A stretch of 64,000 nt of DNA from Candidatus Sumerlaeota bacterium. Lineage in GTDB: Bacteria > Sumerlaeota > Sumerlaeia > JAFGJS01. This document shows positions 29,482-39,310 of the stretch, one piece after another. The position numbers and the translations under genes were made by a program. Location of the stretch: assembly GCA_016928995.1 (NCBI GenBank), contig JAFGJS010000030.1:1-64000 (forward strand). The letters run 5' to 3'. Numbering within the stretch: the first letter of the stretch is position 1; every line of letters starts with the position of its first letter. The notes under the pieces were generated by a model. The model did not search any database, was not told the DNA's origin, and saw only the letters and a program-made list of their open reading frames with translations.

Positions 29482-30615
29482 TCAACGACTGCTGAGCCAG
29501 AGGCGGATGAGGTTTTCGGCGGCGTTGCGGAGGAGGGATTTGGCGTTGCGCATGGCGTGCTCCAGCGGCATGGGAGCGTCGCAGATCGAGTGCACGCTGG
29601 TCATGCCGATGGGGCGCAGTTTGTTCACGTTGTCGCCGATGGCGCCGCAGAGCGCGACACAGGGGATGCCTGCGGCTTTCGCGCGGCGCATGACTTCGGC
29701 GGGCGCCTTGCCGAAGCGGGTTTGGCCGTCGATCTTGCCTTCGCCGGTGATCACGAGCGACGCGCCTTGCAGCCGTTCGTCGAGCCGCACGGCGTCCGCG
29801 ATGAGTTCGGCGCCGGGCCGCAGTTCGGCGTTGAGAAAGGCGATGAGTCCCGCGCCGAGTCCGCCGGCCGCTCCGGCGCCGGGGATGCGGCCCACGCTCG
29901 GGCCTAGATCGCGGCGGACCACGCGCGCGAAGTTTTTGGCTCCGGCTTCCAGGGCTTCCAGCATGCGCGGCGTAGCGCCCTTTTGCGGCGAGTAGACCTG
30001 AATGCCGCCCTGCTTGCCGGTCAGGGGATTCGTTACGTCGCAGGCGGCTTCGATCTTCGTCTTAGCAATCACGGGATGGAGTCCGGATAGATCAACGCGC
30101 GCCAGCTTGCTCAACGCGCCGCCGCCGGATTTCAGCGCGTTGCCTTTCGCGTCCAGCAGTTTCGCGCCAAGAGCCTGCGCCATGCCGCAGCCGCAATCGA
30201 CTGTGGCGGATCCGCCGATGCCCACGAGCACACGTCGCGCGCCGCGATCCAGCGCGTCGGCGATCAACTGGCCGGTGCCGTAGGTCGATGTTTTCAGGGG
30301 ATTGCGTTGTTTGGGGGAGAGCAGCCGCAGTCCGGAGACCTCGGCCATTTCGATGAAGGCCGTGCGTTCGGATTCGAGCCAGGCATAGCGGCCCATGACC
30401 GGATCGCCCAGCGGACCTTGTACTTTACGCCGGATCCAGCGCCCGACGCATGCGGCCAGCATGGCCTCGGCGGAGCCGTCTCCGCCGTCCGCCATGGGGC
30501 AGAGCACCGTTTGCGCGTCCGGCATGGCACGATGCACACCCTGCGCCATCGCACGAGCCGTTTCACCGGCGGTGAGCGATTCCTTGAATGCGTTGGGGGC
30601 CAGGACGATCTTCAT
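29482..30615 (-). CDS. Glycerate kinase (GarK/GlxK family)
   Basis: 377 residues, normal for the type I glycerate kinase family, which phosphorylates D-glycerate to 2-phosphoglycerate (some to the 3-phosphate). Family motifs run throughout: MKIVLAPNAFKESLTAGETA, PMADGGDGSAEAM, FIEMAEVSGL, STYGTGQLIADAL, GIGGSATVDCGCGMAQALG, PGAGAAGGLGAGL and ITGEGKIDGQT. Its position beside the glucosylglycerate operon is suggestive, because breakdown of glucosylglycerate frees glycerate that this enzyme could return to glycolysis. It could equally serve general glycerate or glyoxylate use. Confidence 0.93.
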   Translation of the reverse strand: MKIVLAPNAFKESLTAGETARAMAQGVHRAMPDAQTVLCPMADGGDGSAEAMLAACVGRWIRRKVQGPLGDPVMGRYAWLESERTAFIEMAEVSGLRLLSPKQRNPLKTSTYGTGQLIADALDRGARRVLVGIGGSATVDCGCGMAQALGAKLLDAKGNALKSGGGALSKLARVDLSGLHPVIAKTKIEAACDVTNPLTGKQGGIQVYSPQKGATPRMLEALEAGAKNFARVVRRDLGPSVGRIPGAGAAGGLGAGLIAFLNAELRPGAELIADAVRLDERLQGASLVITGEGKIDGQTRFGKAPAEVMRRAKAAGIPCVALCGAIGDNVNKLRPIGMTSVHSICDAPMPLEHAMRNAKSLLRNAAENLIRLWLSSR

Positions 30616-30671
30616 CCTTCACTCCAATCTTGCGCGTAAAGCGCTTGGGCTGGGCGCCGAACACAGAATAA

Positions 30672-30703
30672 CCGGCGGCCTGCGTAAAATGACAGACCGC
30701 CGG
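30672..30703 (-). terminator. Stem-loop after the AURKAIP1-like small gene
   Basis: Arms 30672-30682 (CCGGCGGCCTG) and 30693-30703 pair with one mismatch around a 10-nt loop; the minus strand continues TTATTCTGTG. It lies between the 30-residue gene and the glycerate kinase start on the same strand and probably separates their transcripts. Confidence 0.45.
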
Positions 30704-30768
30704 CATCGTGTGCTTTCCGGCCAGCTCCCAACGTCGCAAAACGACGCCAAGAACGGCGTAAAAAAGGA

Positions 30769-30861
30769 TTACTTTTTCAGTTTGAATTTCATCCGCTTCA
30801 TCAGTTTTTTATACTTGTGTTTGCGGATTTTTTTGCGGCGCTTCTTGATGACGCTTCCCAT
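30769..30861 (-). CDS. AURKAIP1/COX24-domain small basic protein
   Basis: Only 30 residues, more than half Lys or Arg, from ATG 30861 to TAA 30769-30771: MGSVIKKRRKKIRKHKYKK followed by LMKRMKFKLKK. The GSVIKKRRKK-RKHK-KK pattern is the AURKAIP1/COX24 domain, related to mitochondrial ribosomal protein mS38 and found as tiny free proteins in Bacteroidota, PVC and some other bacteria. It is probably a ribosome-associated protein. It lies alone between the glycerate kinase gene and the regulatory region of the Hyf-like operon. Its short length makes automated callers miss it, but codon-by-codon agreement with the family is strong. Confidence 0.85.
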   Translation of the reverse strand: MGSVIKKRRKKIRKHKYKKLMKRMKFKLKK

Positions 30862-31174
30862 CGTAGATTCCATTCTCCAATCATGGCGTTTCCGAATATT
30901 AAGGAACGGATTATAAAAACCTTCGGAAAGCGATGGGCAATAGAAAAATACGCGAAATGTGCGATTTTTTTGATGTTGGATTATTCACGCAGGGGCGGGA
31001 AGCGCTAAGATATCAACGGAAATGGAGATTTGGGGATATTGGGGATGGAGGGGAGATGAATCGCAGAGATCGGATTGAGCGTGTTTTCGTGATGTGAAGA
31101 TTCCTGGCTCTTGATCTGATTGGATCATTATTTCCATCTATCTCCCAGCACGATTCTCTCGCTCGCCGGGGTAT

Positions 31175-31246
31175 TGAGAAATTTGAGCCAATAATTTCTC
31201 AGACCTATACAAGTTTCTTGACATTTCTCAAAATGATCAGTATATT
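31175..31246 (+). promoter_or_regulatory. Sigma70-type promoter with candidate operator for the Hyf/Ehr-like operon
   Basis: TTGACA (31218-31223), a 17-bp spacer and TATATT (31241-31246) form a near-consensus promoter about 80 bp before ATG 31325. Just upstream, TGAGAAATT (31175-31183) and AATTTCTCA (31193-31201) form a perfect 9-bp inverted repeat with a 9-nt loop. A further ATTTCTCA half-site lies inside the promoter spacer (31223-31230). Together they look like an operator; the HTH protein encoded by the first gene is a natural candidate to bind it. The remainder of the 463-bp gap shows no gene. Confidence 0.6.
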
Positions 31247-31324
31247 CCCAATATTCATGATTGTATTGCGATTTTGCGTTGGCGGATCAGAATTCATACT
31301 TTGTTGAATAAAGGAGCGTTAATT

Positions 31325-32014
31325 ATGCGCTTGAAGGTGCGTGATGCGGCCCGGCTCTTGGAAGTGTCGGACAAAACGATCTACCGCTGGGTCAGCCAGG
31401 GCCGGCTTCCGGCGTATAAAATCAACGAGCAGATACGCTTCAACCAGGCGGAATTGCAGGAATGGGCGGCGGCCCAAAAGATCAATGTGAATGCCGGCGT
31501 CCTGGAGCAAGACAAGGAAGCCGGAAAGGCGCCAATCGGTCTGGCGCAGGCTCTGAATCAGGGCGGGATTTATTACCGCATCGAAGGCCGGGACCCGAAA
31601 TCCGTGCTGACCTCAATGGTCAAGGTGGTGTCGATTCCAGAAGAAGTCGACCGTGATTTCCTGCTGCAGATGCTGCTCGCGCGGGAATCGCTCGCATCGA
31701 CTGGAATTGGCAGTGGCATCTCGATTCCACATCCGCGCAATCCGATCATCACCCACCGCGATCATGCGATTGTGTCATTATGCTTTTTGGAAAAGCCGGT
31801 TGATTTCAACGCGCTGGATGGAGCGCCGGTGCATACTCTTTTTTTAATGCTCAGTCCGACGCTTCAATTGCATCTGCGTCTGATCTCCCGGGTGGCTCAC
31901 GCCGTGCATGATCCGCGCTTCATGAAACTGATGCGAGAGCAGGCCACACGTGAGAAGATCTTGCGGTTGGCGGCGGAGATTGACGCCAGCATCGAAGAAG
32001 CCGTCCGCGAATGA
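31325..32014 (+). CDS. Excisionase-type HTH protein fused to EIIA-Ntr-like PTS domain
   Basis: 229 residues from ATG 31325, with AAAGGAG upstream. Residues 1-55 are a MerR/excisionase-type helix-turn-helix (VRDAARLLEVSDKTIYRWVS, LPAYKINEQIRFN). Residues about 75-229 form an EIIA-Ntr/fructose-type PTS domain with the phospho-acceptor region GISIPHPRNP; His136 is the expected site. The ATG of the NuoL-like gene overlaps its stop (ATGA), so it heads the operon. A regulator that reads phosphorylation through a PTS domain to set expression or activity of the membrane complex is a reasonable inference. No PTS EI or HPr gene lies in the window. Confidence 0.85.
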   Translation: MRLKVRDAARLLEVSDKTIYRWVSQGRLPAYKINEQIRFNQAELQEWAAAQKINVNAGVLEQDKEAGKAPIGLAQALNQGGIYYRIEGRDPKSVLTSMVKVVSIPEEVDRDFLLQMLLARESLASTGIGSGISIPHPRNPIITHRDHAIVSLCFLEKPVDFNALDGAPVHTLFLMLSPTLQLHLRLISRVAHAVHDPRFMKLMREQATREKILRLAAEIDASIEEAVRE

Positions 32015-33999
32015 AACTCCTGTTGCTGTTCAGTTTGTCGGCCTATCCGGTCACGGCTGTGCTTTCGCTGTTGCCGGGACGCCGTTCGCAGTTGAGCGGT
32101 TGGATCAATCCGGCTGGCTCCATGCTTGCGGCGCTGCTTGGTTTCTTTCCGGCGATGCATGCGCTGGGAGGCGGCGCGGTCGAGTTCCAGTCGGCATGGA
32201 GTTTCCCCATCGGCTCATTTCATCTGCGGCTGGATGCGCTCTCCGCCTGGTTTTGTCTGCCGATGCTGATGATTTCCGCGCTGGCGGCGAGCTACGGCCG
32301 GGGCTACATGCGCCATTCCGGCGATCAAACGTCAGTCAATCTGCACTGGTTTTTCTTCCAACTTTTATCCGGCGGCGTATATCTGACGCTTATGGCTTGG
32401 GATGCGATTCTGTTTTTGATCGCATGGGAAGTCATGTCGTTATCCGCCTGGTTTCTGGTCATGTTCGATCATGAGAATCCAACGGTGCAGCGCGCCGGTT
32501 GGATTTATCTGGCCGCGACGCAATTGGGAACGGCGTTCCTGTTGATCATGTTCGTCATGCTCGGAGCCGACGGCGGCGGTCTTGACTTTACGTTGTTTTT
32601 AGGAACGAGCCGCGCGGCCGGTCTTGTGTTTATTTTCGCCGTGTTGGGATTCGGCGCCAAGGCCGGTTTCTTCGGACTGCACGTCTGGCTGCCGGAGGCG
32701 CATCCCGCGGCGCCTTCTCATGTTTCTGGATTGATGAGCGGTGTGATGATCAAAATGGGCGTCTATGGATTGCTGCGCATCTTGACCATGCTGCCTGCCT
32801 GGGCGGAGTGGTGGGGCTGGCTGCTGATCGGCGCCGGGGCGGTCTCCGGACTGGGCGGGGCGCTGTTTGCGATGGCGCAGCATGACATCAAACGATTGCT
32901 GGCATACAGCAGCGTTGAGAATATCGGCATCGTCTGCCTGGGATTGGGCATGGGCATGCTGGGCTTCCAGCATCAATGTCATACCATCGCTTTGCTGGGG
33001 ATGGCCGGCGCGATGCTGCATGTGCTGAATCATTCGATTTTCAAGACGGCGCTGTTTATGGGCGCTGGTTCCGTGGCGCATGCGACAGGCGCGCGGGAGA
33101 TCGACCTGCTGGGCGGTTTGCAGAAACGCATGCCGGTCACGGCGGCGATTTTCATGCTTGCGGCCGCGGCGATTTGCGGATTGCCGCCGTTGAATGGCTT
33201 TATCAGCGAGATGCTGATTTTTCTGGCGGCATTCCGGGGCGTGATGCTGGGTCCGGCGCCGGATGTCAGCGTCGCTTTGGGCGGCATTGCCGTCGTCGTT
33301 TCTCTCGGCCTGACCGGCGGACTCGCCATGATGTGCTTCGCCAATGTTTTTGGCGTTGTGTTCCTCGGCGAAGCCCGCCATGCCTGTTGCGAGCATGCGC
33401 ACGAAGCGCCTTGGAGCATGCGTCTGCCGATGTCGCTCCTTGCGGCGGCGTGCGTGTTGGCGGGGCTTGGCGGATTCTGGCTGATTCAGCTCGCCGCTTC
33501 GGCGGCGGTCAGCATTCATCCTGCTGGCATGAATGACGGCGCCGCTGAAATGCTGTTGATGGAAACGGCGGTTTTGCTCAAAGTTTCCGCGCTGGCGCTG
33601 GGCCTGATCGTCGTTTTTCTGCTGCTGAGTTTGGCGCGATCGCGTCTGCTTCGCGACCGCGATGTGCGGAACGTATCGACCTGGGGTTGCGGCTATGCCA
33701 GCCCATCGCCTCGGATGCAGTACACCGGTTCATCATTCGTCCAGCCAGCGCTGCATGCCTTTCGTCTGTTTTTTCGCGTAAAAACCAGCGGTGATCCGCC
33801 TTCGGGCCGTCTTCCGGTCCGGGCACGATTTTCCTCATACATCGCCGATCCGTGGTTGAATGGATTTTATGAACCGTTATTGAAAGCAGCGGCGGCGGGA
33901 GCCGTCCGGTTGCGGCGAATCCAGCATGGACGGGTTCATTATTACGTTTTGTATCTGATTCTGGCGCTCATCGCCATTTTGATCTGGAGTCTGCATTGA
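32011..33999 (+). CDS. HyfB/NuoL-like proton-translocating subunit
   Basis: 662 residues, almost entirely hydrophobic, with many membrane segments. It is a Mrp/NuoL-type antiporter-like subunit of group 4 hydrogenase-type complexes: AWEVMSLSAWFLVMFDHE carries the conserved Glu of helix 5, and KAGFFGLHVWLPEAHPAAPSHVS is the signature of the family with the pumping Lys. DIKRLLAYSSVENIGIVCLG and HVLNHSIFKTALFMGAGS follow. The C-terminal extension (WGCGYASPSPRMQYTGSSF) matches HyfB-type subunits rather than Nuo. Ions would be moved across the inner membrane, coupled to the soluble arm encoded downstream. Confidence 0.9.
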   Translation: MKLLLLFSLSAYPVTAVLSLLPGRRSQLSGWINPAGSMLAALLGFFPAMHALGGGAVEFQSAWSFPIGSFHLRLDALSAWFCLPMLMISALAASYGRGYMRHSGDQTSVNLHWFFFQLLSGGVYLTLMAWDAILFLIAWEVMSLSAWFLVMFDHENPTVQRAGWIYLAATQLGTAFLLIMFVMLGADGGGLDFTLFLGTSRAAGLVFIFAVLGFGAKAGFFGLHVWLPEAHPAAPSHVSGLMSGVMIKMGVYGLLRILTMLPAWAEWWGWLLIGAGAVSGLGGALFAMAQHDIKRLLAYSSVENIGIVCLGLGMGMLGFQHQCHTIALLGMAGAMLHVLNHSIFKTALFMGAGSVAHATGAREIDLLGGLQKRMPVTAAIFMLAAAAICGLPPLNGFISEMLIFLAAFRGVMLGPAPDVSVALGGIAVVVSLGLTGGLAMMCFANVFGVVFLGEARHACCEHAHEAPWSMRLPMSLLAAACVLAGLGGFWLIQLAASAAVSIHPAGMNDGAAEMLLMETAVLLKVSALALGLIVVFLLLSLARSRLLRDRDVRNVSTWGCGYASPSPRMQYTGSSFVQPALHAFRLFFRVKTSGDPPSGRLPVRARFSSYIADPWLNGFYEPLLKAAAAGAVRLRRIQHGRVHYYVLYLILALIAILIWSLH

Positions 34000-34922
34000 T
34001 TTCCCCAGTGTCTATTTCGTCCGTTGCTGCGGCGTTGATACTCTCGCCGTTGCTGCGATCAATCATCAACCGGACAAAGGCCGGATTCGCCGGACGGCAA
34101 GGGCCTCCCTGGCTGCAACCGTATTATGATCTGATCAAGCTTTTACGGAAAGGGGCGGTCTATAGCCGCACGACCACTTGGATTTTCCGGGCCAGCCCCG
34201 TTGCCGGATTGACAATGGCGCTGGGTGCGTTGTGTCTGACGCCGATGGGCGGGGAGAATAGTGTGCTTCACTTTGAAGGCGATTTGTTGTTGTTCGCCTA
34301 CATGCTGGGCCTGTGGCGCTTTTTTACGATTCTCGCTGCGATGGACACCGGCTCCAGTTTCGAGGGAATGGGCGCCAGCCGCGAGGCGTTTTACTCGGCG
34401 CTGGCCGAACCGGCGTTGTTGCTCGGACTCGAAGGCCTTGCGCTGAAAGCCCAGAGCGCCTCGCTGAGCGGGATCTATGCTGCGTTGGAAAACTCCGTCA
34501 GCGCCGGCGGCCATGCGGCGACCTTGATTTTCATCATGCTCGCATTTCTGATTATTTATCTGACTGAAAACGCCCGGATTCCCGTGGACGATCCAACGAC
34601 GCATCTGGAACTGACCATGATTCATGAAGTGATGGTTCTCGATCACTGTGGAGTCGATCTGGCCATCATCGAATACGCCGGCGCGTTGAAACTCTGGATC
34701 CTGGGATTGTTGATCACGGGTTTATTCGTTCCGATTCAAGCCGGCGCGACCTGGCTGAATTTGGGAGCGTCCATTTTGTGCCTCTTCCTGCTGGCTGTTC
34801 TTGTCGGCGTGATTGAATCGGTCATGGCCCGGTTCAAACTCGTGAAGATTCCTCAACTGCTCACCGGGGCGTTTGTGCTGGCGGCGCTATGGGGAGTCTG
34901 GATTGCGAGGACGCAGTTATGA
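33996..34922 (+). CDS. HyfC/NuoH-like membrane subunit
   Basis: 308 residues from TTG 33996, which overlaps the stop of the preceding gene. It is the NuoH/HyfC membrane anchor that joins the soluble arm: GPPWLQPYYDLIKLLRKG is typical of HyfC, TENARIPVDDPTTHLELTM gives the conserved acidic loop facing the quinone-like cavity, and MIHEVMVLDHCGVDLAIIEY follows. About eight hydrophobic segments. TTG is unusual but well supported by coupling and family alignment. Confidence 0.9.
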   Translation: MISPVSISSVAAALILSPLLRSIINRTKAGFAGRQGPPWLQPYYDLIKLLRKGAVYSRTTTWIFRASPVAGLTMALGALCLTPMGGENSVLHFEGDLLLFAYMLGLWRFFTILAAMDTGSSFEGMGASREAFYSALAEPALLLGLEGLALKAQSASLSGIYAALENSVSAGGHAATLIFIMLAFLIIYLTENARIPVDDPTTHLELTMIHEVMVLDHCGVDLAIIEYAGALKLWILGLLITGLFVPIQAGATWLNLGASILCLFLLAVLVGVIESVMARFKLVKIPQLLTGAFVLAALWGVWIARTQL

Positions 34923-35557
34923 TTGTTCAGATGCTGGCGGCTTTTCTGATTCTGATCAATCTGCTGATGCTGGGATCGTCGCGTCTGGGCGTGTTGATCC
35001 GCACAGTCGCGGGACAGGCGTTGTTTTTATGCCTGCTGGTGATTTTTGCGCAGACGGAGCGCTTGACCTGGCATGAGTGGCTGTTTCTCGCCGCGACGAT
35101 CGTTGTGAAGAGTTATGCGCTGCCCAAACTGCTCTGGCGCACATTGCGCGAGGCGGCTATTCGCCGGGACATCGAGCCGTTGGTCGGCTATTCCGGCTCC
35201 CTGTTTCTAGGGCTTGTTTTGCTCGGAGCCTGCCTGCTGGGCGCGTCGCGGCTTCCGCTGCCGGAAGGCCGCGTCAATCCGCTGATCCTCACAGCGATGT
35301 TTTTCACGATTTGCAGCGGATTGCAGCTGGTGGTCAGTCGTAGCAAAGCGATTACGCAGGTGATCGGATATCTCTGTATGGAAAACGGCATTTATGGCCT
35401 GGGGCTGGTCGTGGCGGCAAACAGTCCGTTGATCGTGGAGATGGGCATTCTGTTGGACGTGCTGGTCGGCATTTTCATCATGGGCATCATGATCAACCAC
35501 ATCAATCGTGATTTCGATCATATCGACACGAGCCAGTTGAATACGCTGAAGGATTAA
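34919..35557 (+). CDS. HyfE-like membrane subunit
   Basis: 212 residues from ATG 34919, overlapping the hyfC-like stop (ATGA); a GTG-like in-frame start further upstream would lie inside that gene. Several membrane segments; the N-terminus MIVQMLAAFLILINLLMLGS and the C-terminal part IGYLCMENGIYGLGLVVA with DVLVGIFIMGIMINHINRDF are HyfE signatures, distantly like NuoK. It is a membrane-arm subunit of the complex. Confidence 0.88.
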   Translation: MIVQMLAAFLILINLLMLGSSRLGVLIRTVAGQALFLCLLVIFAQTERLTWHEWLFLAATIVVKSYALPKLLWRTLREAAIRRDIEPLVGYSGSLFLGLVLLGACLLGASRLPLPEGRVNPLILTAMFFTICSGLQLVVSRSKAITQVIGYLCMENGIYGLGLVVAANSPLIVEMGILLDVLVGIFIMGIMINHINRDFDHIDTSQLNTLKD

Positions 35558-35561
35558 AACC

Positions 35562-37025
35562 ATGGAATGGCTATTGCTCGTCACTCCCTTCGCCGGCGGT
35601 GCGTGGTGTTTCTGGATCGTCCAGGATACACTGCGCCGGATCGTGTTGCCGTTGACGGCGGCGATGCATTTTATTTTCACGCTGCTGATCTGGAACGGCG
35701 GCTTGCGCCAGACGACGCATGGTTGGATTGGCGTCGATGCGCTGGGGATGACGTTTCTGCTGACGCTCAGTTTCCTTTTTATGCTTGTCGCCTTCTACAC
35801 TCGCGGTTATCTGGCTGAGCATGCCTGTCCGGAAGAAAGCGGACGGCGCTTGTCCCATGAAGCTGTGTTCACGGGTTCGATGCTGGTGTTTCTGGGCACG
35901 ATGACGCTGGCGATCATGAGTTTGCACACCGGCGTTTACTGGATGGCGATTGAGGCGACGACGCTGGCCAGCGCTCCGCTGATCATCTATCAGCGTTCGT
36001 CCCGTTCACTGGAAGCTGTATGGAAGTATCTGCTGATATGTTCCGTGGGCATCGCGATGGCCTTGCTTGGCAACATCGCCCTGGCTGTTTCCGCCTCCTT
36101 CGAGCTTAAAGCCGGCGCCATGCCGATGACGTTTCAGGCGCTGAATTTGAACGCCGGCGTGTTGCAGCCCATATGGCTGAAAGGGGCGTTCGCTTTTTTT
36201 CTGGCGGGTTATGGGACCAAAATGGGTTTGGCGCCGATGCACACCTGGCTGCCGGACGCGCATAGCGAAGCTCCATCGCCGATTTCCGCGCTGCTTTCCG
36301 GCGCGTTGTTGAATTGTGCTTTTCTGGGCATTCTGCGCGCAAACGGCATTCTGACGCGCGCGGGATTCGGCGATTTCAGCCATCGCCTGCTTGTGCTGTT
36401 CGGTCTGTTTTCGATGCTTCTGGCTGGTTGCCTGATCATCCGTCAGGCTGATTTCAAACGCCTGCTGGCGTATTCCAGCATTGAGCATATGGGGCTGCTT
36501 GCCATTGCGGCGGGCGCCTGCGCCCAGACGCATTTCGGCGCCATGCTGCATCTCGTGAATCATTCTCTGACCAAGGGGATGCTGTTCTTGACAGCCGGCA
36601 ATATTCTCAGCGCGTATCAGACTAAATCCGCGCGGGATGTCAGCGGATTGCTTCGCATCCTTCCGGTCTCCGGGATGTTGTGGATCGCGGGATTCATGGC
36701 CATTTGCGGCGCTCCGCCCTTTGGAATGTTCATCAGCGAAATCTCCATCATGTACGGCCTGGGGCAGGCGCGTCAATGGCTCGTGCTGGGCTTGCTGTTG
36801 CTGGCGCTGAGCGTGATTTTCATCGGCATGTCGCAAATCGTCGCGCCCATGGCCTATGGCAAGCCAAGCATCACGCCGCCTATCGAGCCTGAACGGCATG
36901 GCTCGCTGTGGCGCAATCTGCCGCCGTTGATTCTTTGCGGCGCGATCCTGATGCTGGGCGTTTGGCTGCCTCAGCCGCTCAGCTTGCTGCTTGAGCAGGC
37001 GGCGTCGATGTTGGGAGGCTCGTAA
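35562..37025 (+). CDS. HyfF/NuoN-like proton-translocating subunit
   Basis: 487 residues, the second antiporter-like subunit. Key segments: MAIEATTLASAPLIIYQRS (helix 5 Glu), GTKMGLAPMHTWLPDAHSEA (pumping Lys region), DFKRLLAYSSIEHMGLLAIA and LHLVNHSLTKGMLFLTAG. Such pairs (HyfB plus HyfF) are standard for hydrogenase-4-like and Ehr complexes. Four bases separate it from hyfE and two from the large subunit gene. Confidence 0.9.
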   Translation: MEWLLLVTPFAGGAWCFWIVQDTLRRIVLPLTAAMHFIFTLLIWNGGLRQTTHGWIGVDALGMTFLLTLSFLFMLVAFYTRGYLAEHACPEESGRRLSHEAVFTGSMLVFLGTMTLAIMSLHTGVYWMAIEATTLASAPLIIYQRSSRSLEAVWKYLLICSVGIAMALLGNIALAVSASFELKAGAMPMTFQALNLNAGVLQPIWLKGAFAFFLAGYGTKMGLAPMHTWLPDAHSEAPSPISALLSGALLNCAFLGILRANGILTRAGFGDFSHRLLVLFGLFSMLLAGCLIIRQADFKRLLAYSSIEHMGLLAIAAGACAQTHFGAMLHLVNHSLTKGMLFLTAGNILSAYQTKSARDVSGLLRILPVSGMLWIAGFMAICGAPPFGMFISEISIMYGLGQARQWLVLGLLLLALSVIFIGMSQIVAPMAYGKPSITPPIEPERHGSLWRNLPPLILCGAILMLGVWLPQPLSLLLEQAASMLGGS

Positions 37026-37027
37026 AC

Positions 37028-38515
37028 ATGGCTGGGCAATCCATCGTCCTTCGCAACAATCAGCCGGTCGCGCTGACGGAGATCCCTCGCCTCTCGCTGG
37101 ATGCATTTCGCGCATGGACCGTTTCTCAGGTCGAAGCGGGGAAACGCCTGGCGGTGTTATGTTGTTTTCCTCAGATTCATGGATTTTTGCTTTGCGCCGT
37201 GCTGGCTGATGACGCCAATGGATGGCTGGAACTGGCTGGCGCGGAAGCGGCGCAGGAATTTCCTTCGCTGACTCCGCAATGTGTGCAGGCGCAATTATTC
37301 GAGCGGGAAATTTTTGAAACTTATGGTTTGCGGCCCGTAGATCACCCCTGGCTGAAGCCGGTGCGTTTCCCGTGTGCGAGTCATCATCCCAATCATAAGA
37401 TCGGCGAGATGGATTATTTCCAGGTTGAAGGCCCGGAAGTGCACGAGGTGGCGGTCGGTCCCGTGCATGCAGGCGTGATTGAGCCGGGACATTTCCGTTT
37501 CCAATGCCATGGCGAGCGGGTTTTTCACCTGGAGATTTCGCTGGGCTATCAACATCGCGGCGTCATGCAGGCGTTGCTTCAAGCCTCGGAATCCCAGCGG
37601 CGTCATTTGATGGAAACCGCGGCCGGCGACGCCACCGCCGGCCATACGACGGCTTATTGCAACGCGCTGGATGCGCTGGCCGGGCGCCAGGCGCCGGCCC
37701 GGGCGCATGCCATCCGGGGCATTGCGCTCGAATTTGAGCGTATCGCCTGCCATATCGGCGATCTCGGGGCGATGGCCGGCGACGTAGGATTCCTGCCTAC
37801 GCAGGCATATTGCGGGCGTATCCGCGGCGCGGCGCTGAACATGACCGCCGCCATCTGCGGCAATCGTTTCTCTCGCGGTTTAATCCGCCCCGGCGGAGTC
37901 GCCTATGATCTCGACGATGCGATCATCCGTCATCTGTTGGAGCGACTTGAAGCTGTGCGCGCGGATGCCGTCAGCGCCATCGAATTGCTGTGGATCACTC
38001 CTTCGGTGCTGGAGCGTTTCGAACGCACGGGCGTTGTGTCGAAGGAGATCGCCGAGGAGATCGGCTTGGTGGGCCCTGCGGCGCGCGCCTGCGGCCTGAA
38101 TCGCGATGTGCGCCACGATTTTGCTCGCGGCATTTATCAGTTCCAGCAAATTCCTATCGCATCGGTCGAATCTGGTGATGTTTATGGCCGGGCGATGGTG
38201 CGCTGGCTTGAATTGCTGCGTTCGATGACCTTTGTCCGGGAGATGCTGCTGGCGCTGCCGGATTCGAAAATCATGAGCGAACCAGGCGCCATGAAGCCGG
38301 AAAGCATTGTTGTTTCGCTGGTGGAAGGATGGCGCGGCGAAATCTGTCATATCGCCGTGACGGACGCTCAGGGAGAATTGAGCGGCTACAAGATCATTGA
38401 TCCCAGTTTTCACAACTGGTTCGGTCTGGCCTGTGCGTTGCGCGACGAAGCAATTTCCGATTTTCCGCTGTGCAACAAAAGTTTCAATTTATCGTATTGC
38501 GGTTTCGATTTGTAA
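37028..38515 (+). CDS. HyfG/NuoCD-like large subunit lacking NiFe ligands
   Basis: 495 residues: an N-terminal NuoC-like (30 kDa) domain ending about residue 125, containing EREIFETYGL, then a NuoD/hydrogenase large-subunit domain. In real group 4 hydrogenases four cysteines bind the NiFe site, as CxxC near the start (CGICGFAH) and CxxC near the end (DPCLSC). Here the first site reads AGDATAGH, so both Cys are Ala (199 and 202), and the second reads DPSFHNW, giving Ser460 and Asn463. Therefore no NiFe site can form. This matches Ehr complexes (energy-converting hydrogenase-related), intermediate between complex I and group 4 hydrogenases. The catalytic reaction is unknown. Confidence 0.88.
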   Translation: MAGQSIVLRNNQPVALTEIPRLSLDAFRAWTVSQVEAGKRLAVLCCFPQIHGFLLCAVLADDANGWLELAGAEAAQEFPSLTPQCVQAQLFEREIFETYGLRPVDHPWLKPVRFPCASHHPNHKIGEMDYFQVEGPEVHEVAVGPVHAGVIEPGHFRFQCHGERVFHLEISLGYQHRGVMQALLQASESQRRHLMETAAGDATAGHTTAYCNALDALAGRQAPARAHAIRGIALEFERIACHIGDLGAMAGDVGFLPTQAYCGRIRGAALNMTAAICGNRFSRGLIRPGGVAYDLDDAIIRHLLERLEAVRADAVSAIELLWITPSVLERFERTGVVSKEIAEEIGLVGPAARACGLNRDVRHDFARGIYQFQQIPIASVESGDVYGRAMVRWLELLRSMTFVREMLLALPDSKIMSEPGAMKPESIVVSLVEGWRGEICHIAVTDAQGELSGYKIIDPSFHNWFGLACALRDEAISDFPLCNKSFNLSYCGFDL

Positions 38516-38536
38516 TCAGCGAAGGAGCGTCCGTAA

Positions 38537-39310
38537 ATGCTGTTCGAGATTCTTAAAGCGCGATTTCAGCAAGGGCATCAGACGACGGCCTATCCCGCTG
38601 GACCGCCGCCGCAGTTGTCCGAACGCTTTGCCGGCATGCCGGCGATCGAACGGAGCGCTTGCCATTCTTGCGATGGAATCTGCGCCGGCCTTTGCCCAAG
38701 CCGCGCGATTCAGCGCGATGCAGCCGGCGCCGTGGCGCTCGACATGGGGCGATGCCTGTTTTGCAACGAATGCGCGGAGGCATGCCCCAAGGATGCGATT
38801 CGCTTCACGAGTCAATATCAACTGGCGGCGGCCAAGCGCGAGGATCTGATCACCGATGGCGTCAATGCCGACGCGCGCCTTGCGCTCAACGAACGCGCCG
38901 CCCGGCTTTATGGCCGTTCTTTCGCCTTGCGCGTCGTCAGCGCCGGAGGATGCGGGGCGTGCGAAGCGGATGTCAATGTGTTGACCACGCTGACTTGGGA
39001 CATCGGGCGTTTTGGCCTTCATTACGCCGCTTCGCCTCGACATGCCGACGGACTGTTGCTAATTGGTCCTGTTCCGGAAAACATGGCGTTCGCCGTGAAG
39101 GAGACATACGACGCCATACCCGCGCCCAAGTTCGTCATCGCCGTGGGCGCCTGCGCCATCTCCGGCGGCATGTATGCCGATCATCCCGAATGTCACGCCG
39201 GCCGCCGTCCGATCATCCCCATCGATCTGCATATTCCAGGCTGCCCGCCTCATCCTTTGACGATCCTCGATGGTTTGCTGCGTTTCCTTGGGCGCATTTC
39301 TGAGGAGTAG
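38537..39310 (+). CDS. Fused ferredoxin (HyfH-like) and HyfI-like small subunit
   Basis: 257 residues with AAGGAG before ATG 38537. The first 95 residues carry two iron-sulfur motifs, CHSCDGICAGLCP and CLFCNECAEACP, which should bind two 4Fe-4S clusters. Residues about 125-257 form the NuoB/HyfI-type small subunit with GGCGACEADV, GACAISGGMY and PGCPPHP, giving the four ligands of the proximal cluster. In Hyf or Ech these are normally two proteins; here they are one chain, so electrons would pass through a continuous wire. The cluster ligands are intact, unlike the NiFe ligands of the large subunit. Confidence 0.9.
   Translation: MLFEILKARFQQGHQTTAYPAGPPPQLSERFAGMPAIERSACHSCDGICAGLCPSRAIQRDAAGAVALDMGRCLFCNECAEACPKDAIRFTSQYQLAAAKREDLITDGVNADARLALNERAARLYGRSFALRVVSAGGCGACEADVNVLTTLTWDIGRFGLHYAASPRHADGLLLIGPVPENMAFAVKETYDAIPAPKFVIAVGACAISGGMYADHPECHAGRRPIIPIDLHIPGCPPHPLTILDGLLRFLGRISEE

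Follow-up and report, generated by a model that had tools for sequence, protein, structure and literature searches.

An intact Ehr operon headed by an HTH-EIIA gene in a Candidatus Sumerlaeota bacterium

The window analyzed here, a 64,000-nucleotide stretch of the genome of a Candidatus Sumerlaeota bacterium, carries an intact Ehr operon. Ehr, which derives from a hydrogenase whose nickel-iron site was lost, is an already known family, to which this locus adds a new member; the family has been described as kin of the group 4 hydrogenases, with the NiFe ligands missing and with Mrp-like subunits (PMC6349859, PMC10284858). Ehr complexes span at least 10 phyla, while a recent publication labels them non-functional (PMC13194489). 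The Ehr literature that we found reports no biochemical activity. The window's large subunit has lost all four NiFe ligands and falls in a well-supported Ehr clade, and the membrane arm keeps its ion-channel residues, which together support the earlier note's view that the locus encodes an Ehr-type complex and not a hydrogenase. We consider it rather probable that the window's complex is a ferredoxin-linked, ion-translocating oxidoreductase whose acceptor binds in the former NiFe cavity and which is placed under PTS control by an HTH-EIIA protein. The gene for this protein is linked to Ehr and thus offers a handle on when cells want the complex, so that genetic work in Geobacter or Geothrix could address its physiological role.

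Operon organization and subunits

Six intact, co-oriented ORFs, overlapping or closely spaced, occupy positions 32011–39310 on the forward strand. According to Pfam and NCBIfam, their products are HyfB-, HyfC/NuoH-, HyfE- and HyfF-like proteins, a NuoC-NuoD fusion (HyfG/HycE-like) and a ferredoxin-NuoB fusion. The earlier note had taken these genes for a complete six-gene complex; the six homologies that it named hold, but it overlooked a seventh gene, the first of the operon (31325–32014, forward strand), which encodes a fusion of an HTH_17 domain (PF12728) and a PtsN-like PTS EIIA domain (PF00359), a likely regulator, and whose stop overlaps the start of the HyfB-like gene. The ORF list places the start of this gene at TTG 31274, while its relatives begin, in the alignment, at ATG 31325, which is preceded by AAAGGAG. 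A sigma-70-like promoter, TTGACA-17-TATATT (31218–31246, forward strand; 11 of 12 consensus matches), lies about 79 bases 5' of this first ATG but is no more than suggestive, with sigma-70-like sites occurring in the region at chance level. Neither repeats in 30600–31400 nor a strict sigma-54 pattern upstream of the operon was found.

The membrane arm, encoded on the forward strand throughout, includes two Mrp/NuoL-like antiporter subunits with channel residues. The HyfB/NuoL-like subunit (EhrA-like; 32011–33999) retains E140, K217, H341 and E400. Among its 84 relatives, a Glu aligns with NuoL E144 in 83 (the remaining one has a gap), and the Lys, His and Glu at the positions of NuoL K229, H338 and K399 are each present in all 84. 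This antiporter set is near-invariant in the relatives, although the Lys is absent from E. coli HycC. The HyfF/NuoM-like subunit (35562–37025) retains E131, K220 and E393, with the Glu and Lys kept in 79 of 79 relatives. In the HyfC/NuoH-like membrane anchor (33996–34922; PF00146), E138, E205 and H203 are invariant (n = 77 relatives), and an invariant His replaces NuoH E218. Since channel residues are kept in these three subunits, Ehr is likely to translocate ions. The HyfE-like membrane subunit (EhrC-like; 34889–35557, with an alternative start at the internal ATG 34919) matches NF008556 at 1.1e-22, below the model cut-off, and is also found in relatives. A second full-length HyfB-like antiporter gene lies 5' of the large-subunit gene in 19 of 80 Ehr loci (e.g., L039, L041 and L068); the window has one.

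Electrons would enter through EhrS (38537–39310, forward strand), a fusion of a two-cluster ferredoxin and a NuoB-like small subunit with motifs for three [4Fe-4S] clusters. As the earlier note had read from the letters, the ferredoxin part has its two 4Fe-4S motifs intact, and the NuoB-like part keeps all four cluster cysteines (C139, C142, C206 and C236). Its partner is EhrL, a NuoC-NuoD fused large subunit of 495 aa (37028–38515, forward strand).

The subunit set is like that of Geobacter sulfurreducens Ehr (GSU0739–0745: EhrA-1, EhrC, EhrL and EhrS; PMC7894505), with which it was compared by description. The E. coli formate hydrogenlyase hydrogenases 3 and 4 (HycE, Hyf) resemble the window's complex in the whole large-subunit fold and in the HyfB/C/E/F-like membrane arm; however, the window's complex lacks the NiFe ligands, the C-terminal extension after the ligand region and HyfD, and has its ferredoxin and small subunit fused. 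Respiratory complex I (NuoB/C/D/H/L/M) shares the large-subunit fold and the antiporter residues, but the window's operon has neither an NADH module nor the quinone residues H38 and Y87, and the proximal cluster motif of EhrS is a hydrogenase-type CxxC instead of the tandem CC of complex I.

The emptied NiFe site of EhrL

A group 4 [NiFe] hydrogenase possesses two NiFe-binding CxxC pairs, and all four cysteines are replaced in EhrL: A199, A202, S489 and G492 align with E. coli HycE C241, C244, C531 and C534, respectively. The first lost pair was correctly recognized in the earlier note as Ala199/Ala202 before His206. Its second pair, Ser460/Asn463 in DPSFHNW, was misplaced: these residues align with HycE T502/N505, and the PSFxN element around them occurs in complex I too. 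Ser460/Asn463 was accordingly rejected as a ligand pair, the true counterpart of HycE C531/C534 (DPCYSC) being S489/G492 in the C-terminal NKSFNLSYCGFDL. The loss of all four ligand cysteines stands despite this shift, and no set of four conserved cysteines aligns with the NiFe positions. One remaining cysteine of EhrL, C491, sits between both ligand positions of the second pair; it is Ser or Ala in 6 of 85 aligned rows and is therefore not a conserved ligand.

The emptied site is itself strongly conserved. D201, S489, G492, K484, Y490 and E152 never vary among 85 aligned Ehr large subunits, and a cysteine occurs at any of the four ligand positions in only one row. This row, from L043, is the sole Ehr large subunit seen to retain one ligand cysteine (CGDT). 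The invariant D201, flanked by the positions of the first lost ligand pair, constitutes an Ehr signature together with the C-terminal NKSFNLSYxGxDL.

Among solved structures, EhrL matches formate hydrogenlyase HycE best. Its AlphaFold2 model has a mean pLDDT of 91.6 and aligns along its entire length with HycE (Z 43.9, rmsd 2.3, 483 aligned), with complex I second; model confidence is low at 146–148 and 491–495 (the last block), segments that are expected to line the former NiFe cavity. In complex I, the quinone head is bound by Nqo4 H38 and Y87 (PMC7684303). The aligned residues of EhrL are I151 and G200, and a complex-I-like quinone site is therefore not supported.

Relatives of the complex and the HTH-EIIA gene

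Four Ehr proteins were aligned and used to scan GTDB genomes, which yielded at least 573 stretches encoding relatives; the best 80 of these were analyzed. Their record titles point to Planctomycetota, Verrucomicrobiota, Kiritimatiellae, Lentisphaerae, Omnitrophota, Elusimicrobia, Spirochaetota, Acidobacteriota, Myxococcota, Zixibacteria, Gemmatimonadetes, Riflebacteria, Fibrobacteres and Desulfobacterota-type lineages. Most of the sufficiently long loci among these 80 have the gene order HyfB-HyfC-HyfE-HyfF-HyfG-FdB. Within the small phylum of the window's organism, Sumerlaeota (40 genomes), three genomes were seen to encode an Ehr-type large subunit, and the distribution of the operon there is thus patchy.

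In a large-subunit tree of the kind that the earlier note had proposed, all Ehr rows fall into a single clade (100/100), Geobacter Ehr (L068, L077 and L112) among them, and the window's EhrL is nested among the Geobacter-type members. The tree has 43 rows, with thin sampling of the four-cysteine group 4 hydrogenases (six rows); neither MbsL nor the EhrL of Desulfotomaculum ruminis, reported to have four cysteines (PMC3569383), is among the rows. The complex I rows form a separate clade (100/100), and the Ehr clade lies outside all six four-cysteine hydrogenases, with no nesting of EhrL in an active hydrogenase clade. HycE is the nearest of the six to Ehr; the branches joined in this sister relation are long, and we give it no weight. 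The large subunits of the Geobacter/Geomonas Ehr loci, which belong to the same clade and have likewise lost the NiFe ligands, are 52–55% identical to that of the window. More divergent Ehr clusters were also seen. In the Verrucomicrobia locus L083, a second cluster (about 12–20 kb) lies just 3' of the first, and its large subunit is 37% identical and ends in SYSGNDR; L134 (genome G053) and L135 (genome G058) have large subunits 38–40% identical. In L135, a NuoB-like gene comes first, with the match limited to its NuoB part.

The HTH-EIIA gene is present in 42 of the 56 Ehr loci with enough upstream sequence, in many phyla, and absent from the other 14. It lies directly upstream of the cluster in 34 loci, inside it in 6 and divergently in 2. 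In two Geobacter loci it is divergent, in contrast to its place at the head of the operon in the window. Strong homologs occur in four genomes among 61 relatives and adjoin a HyfB-like gene in three of them (the window's genome, G001 and G020), while the contig of the fourth, G022, ends 313 bases after the gene. No HTH-EIIA match was found near the divergent Ehr clusters of G053 and G058. HTH-EIIA distances correlate with large-subunit distances (Mantel r 0.61, as against 0.62 for the HyfF-like subunit), a correlation to which shared host descent contributes.

The EIIA part has the features of a PtsN-like protein, with a PF00359 match and His153 in an IPH motif, and EI and HPr are encoded on C20 of the same genome, their genes side by side. 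Most HTH-EIIA copies retain both the HTH and the IPH motif of the phospho-His; those at L085 4292–4978 and L103 4219–4953 have lost the phospho-His motif and are possibly signal-independent. Since EI and HPr are present and no PF02378 permease was found in the window's genome, a regulatory PTS appears plausible. HTH-EIIA, a likely DNA-binding regulator of the phosphotransfer type, travels with Ehr in many phyla, and the link to the PTS is worth following. Our literature search, which did not cover the founding Ehr papers, found no paper linking EIIA or HTH-EIIA with Ehr or a hydrogenase.

Possible function of the complex and alternative explanations

In the mechanism that we favor, reduced ferredoxin, for example from the PFOR present in the window's genome, would deliver electrons to the ferredoxin part of EhrS, from which they would pass via the proximal cluster to a small acceptor in the cavity that the NiFe site once filled. 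The acceptor would most likely be a quinone or another hydrophobic molecule, and the electron transfer to it would drive ion export; the earlier note had left the acceptor unnamed, rightly in our judgment. HTH-EIIA would be phosphorylated via the EI-HPr relay and most likely regulates the operon at the transcriptional level. A broader proposal, toward which we lean less than away, is that Geobacter-type Ehr represents PTS-regulated energy conservation, in which HTH-EIIA would be a dedicated, phylum-spanning regulator coupling the pump to the cell's PEP/pyruvate status, and in which the invariant [AS]-G-D-[TSA] / NKSFNLSYxGxDL site would serve a substrate chemistry that is neither that of NiFe nor that of the complex I quinone.

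The same complex might run in reverse, with an ion gradient pushing electrons from quinol or another mild donor to ferredoxin and thereby supplying low-potential ferredoxin for biosynthesis. The parts list would be identical, Ehr is found in comammox Nitrospira (PMC10284858), and quinol-to-ferredoxin flow by a complex I variant has been proposed for Nitrospina (PMC3578206). However, Ehr lacks the complex I quinone residues, its sequence gives no clue to the direction, and PFOR can supply reduced ferredoxin in the window's organism; we regard this direction as unlikely.

The sulfane reductase MBS of Pyrococcus is another hydrogenase relative with a lost NiFe site and a Mrp-like pump, and it lacks the complex I quinone residues as well (PMC7684303). 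Its polysulfide reduction takes place at a proximal cluster held by three cysteines (PMC7684303), and an Ehr of this type would be a sulfane or polysulfide reductase with the proximal cluster itself as the catalyst. Against this, EhrS has four proximal cysteines with hydrogenase spacing instead of three in the shortened MBS loop. In addition, proton reduction in MBH involves Glu21, a residue lost from MBS (PMC7684303), but its position is occupied in the alignment by the invariant E152 of Ehr. The two also differ in the large-subunit cysteines, of which Ehr has lost all four and MBS two. An MBS-like activity is very improbable, and the site of Ehr, judged by its residues, matches neither the quinone site of complex I nor the sulfur site of MBS.

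A docked formate dehydrogenase that supplies the electrons of a formate-driven pump, as proposed for Riflemargulisbacteria and Saganbacteria (PMC6349859), would agree with the higher abundance of Ehr subunits in formate-grown Geobacter than in hydrogen-containing conditions (PMC7894505). Nevertheless, no formate dehydrogenase was found in the 92%-complete genome of the window's organism; its only PF00384 (molybdopterin-oxidoreductase) match, some 5 kb away from nuoD, probably represents NuoG, and this arrangement is therefore disfavored for the window's organism. Nor is any neighbor gene common to the 81 loci: clustering of all their ORFs revealed no conserved redox partner gene near Ehr, only small groups besides shadow ORFs of the operon. 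We give formate dehydrogenase docking even less credence than an MBS-like activity. That Ehr is a decayed, non-functional hydrogenase, as a Geobacter evolution paper assumes since the NiFe site is missing (PMC13194489), is scarcely credible, because the near-invariance of the emptied site in 85 sequences from many phyla indicates selection and argues that these complexes work, and the pump and cluster residues are kept.

Two minor observations concern neighboring and unlinked genes. A SulP-like transporter gene, named from a look at the sequence only, lies near Ehr in five loci, including L092 (2336–4243). Elsewhere in the window's genome, HypD and two [NiFe] hydrogenase large subunits are encoded, one of the latter in a cluster (L152, on C134) that also has NuoE-, NuoF- and small-subunit-like genes; the genome therefore encodes a real cytoplasmic-type hydrogenase apart from Ehr.
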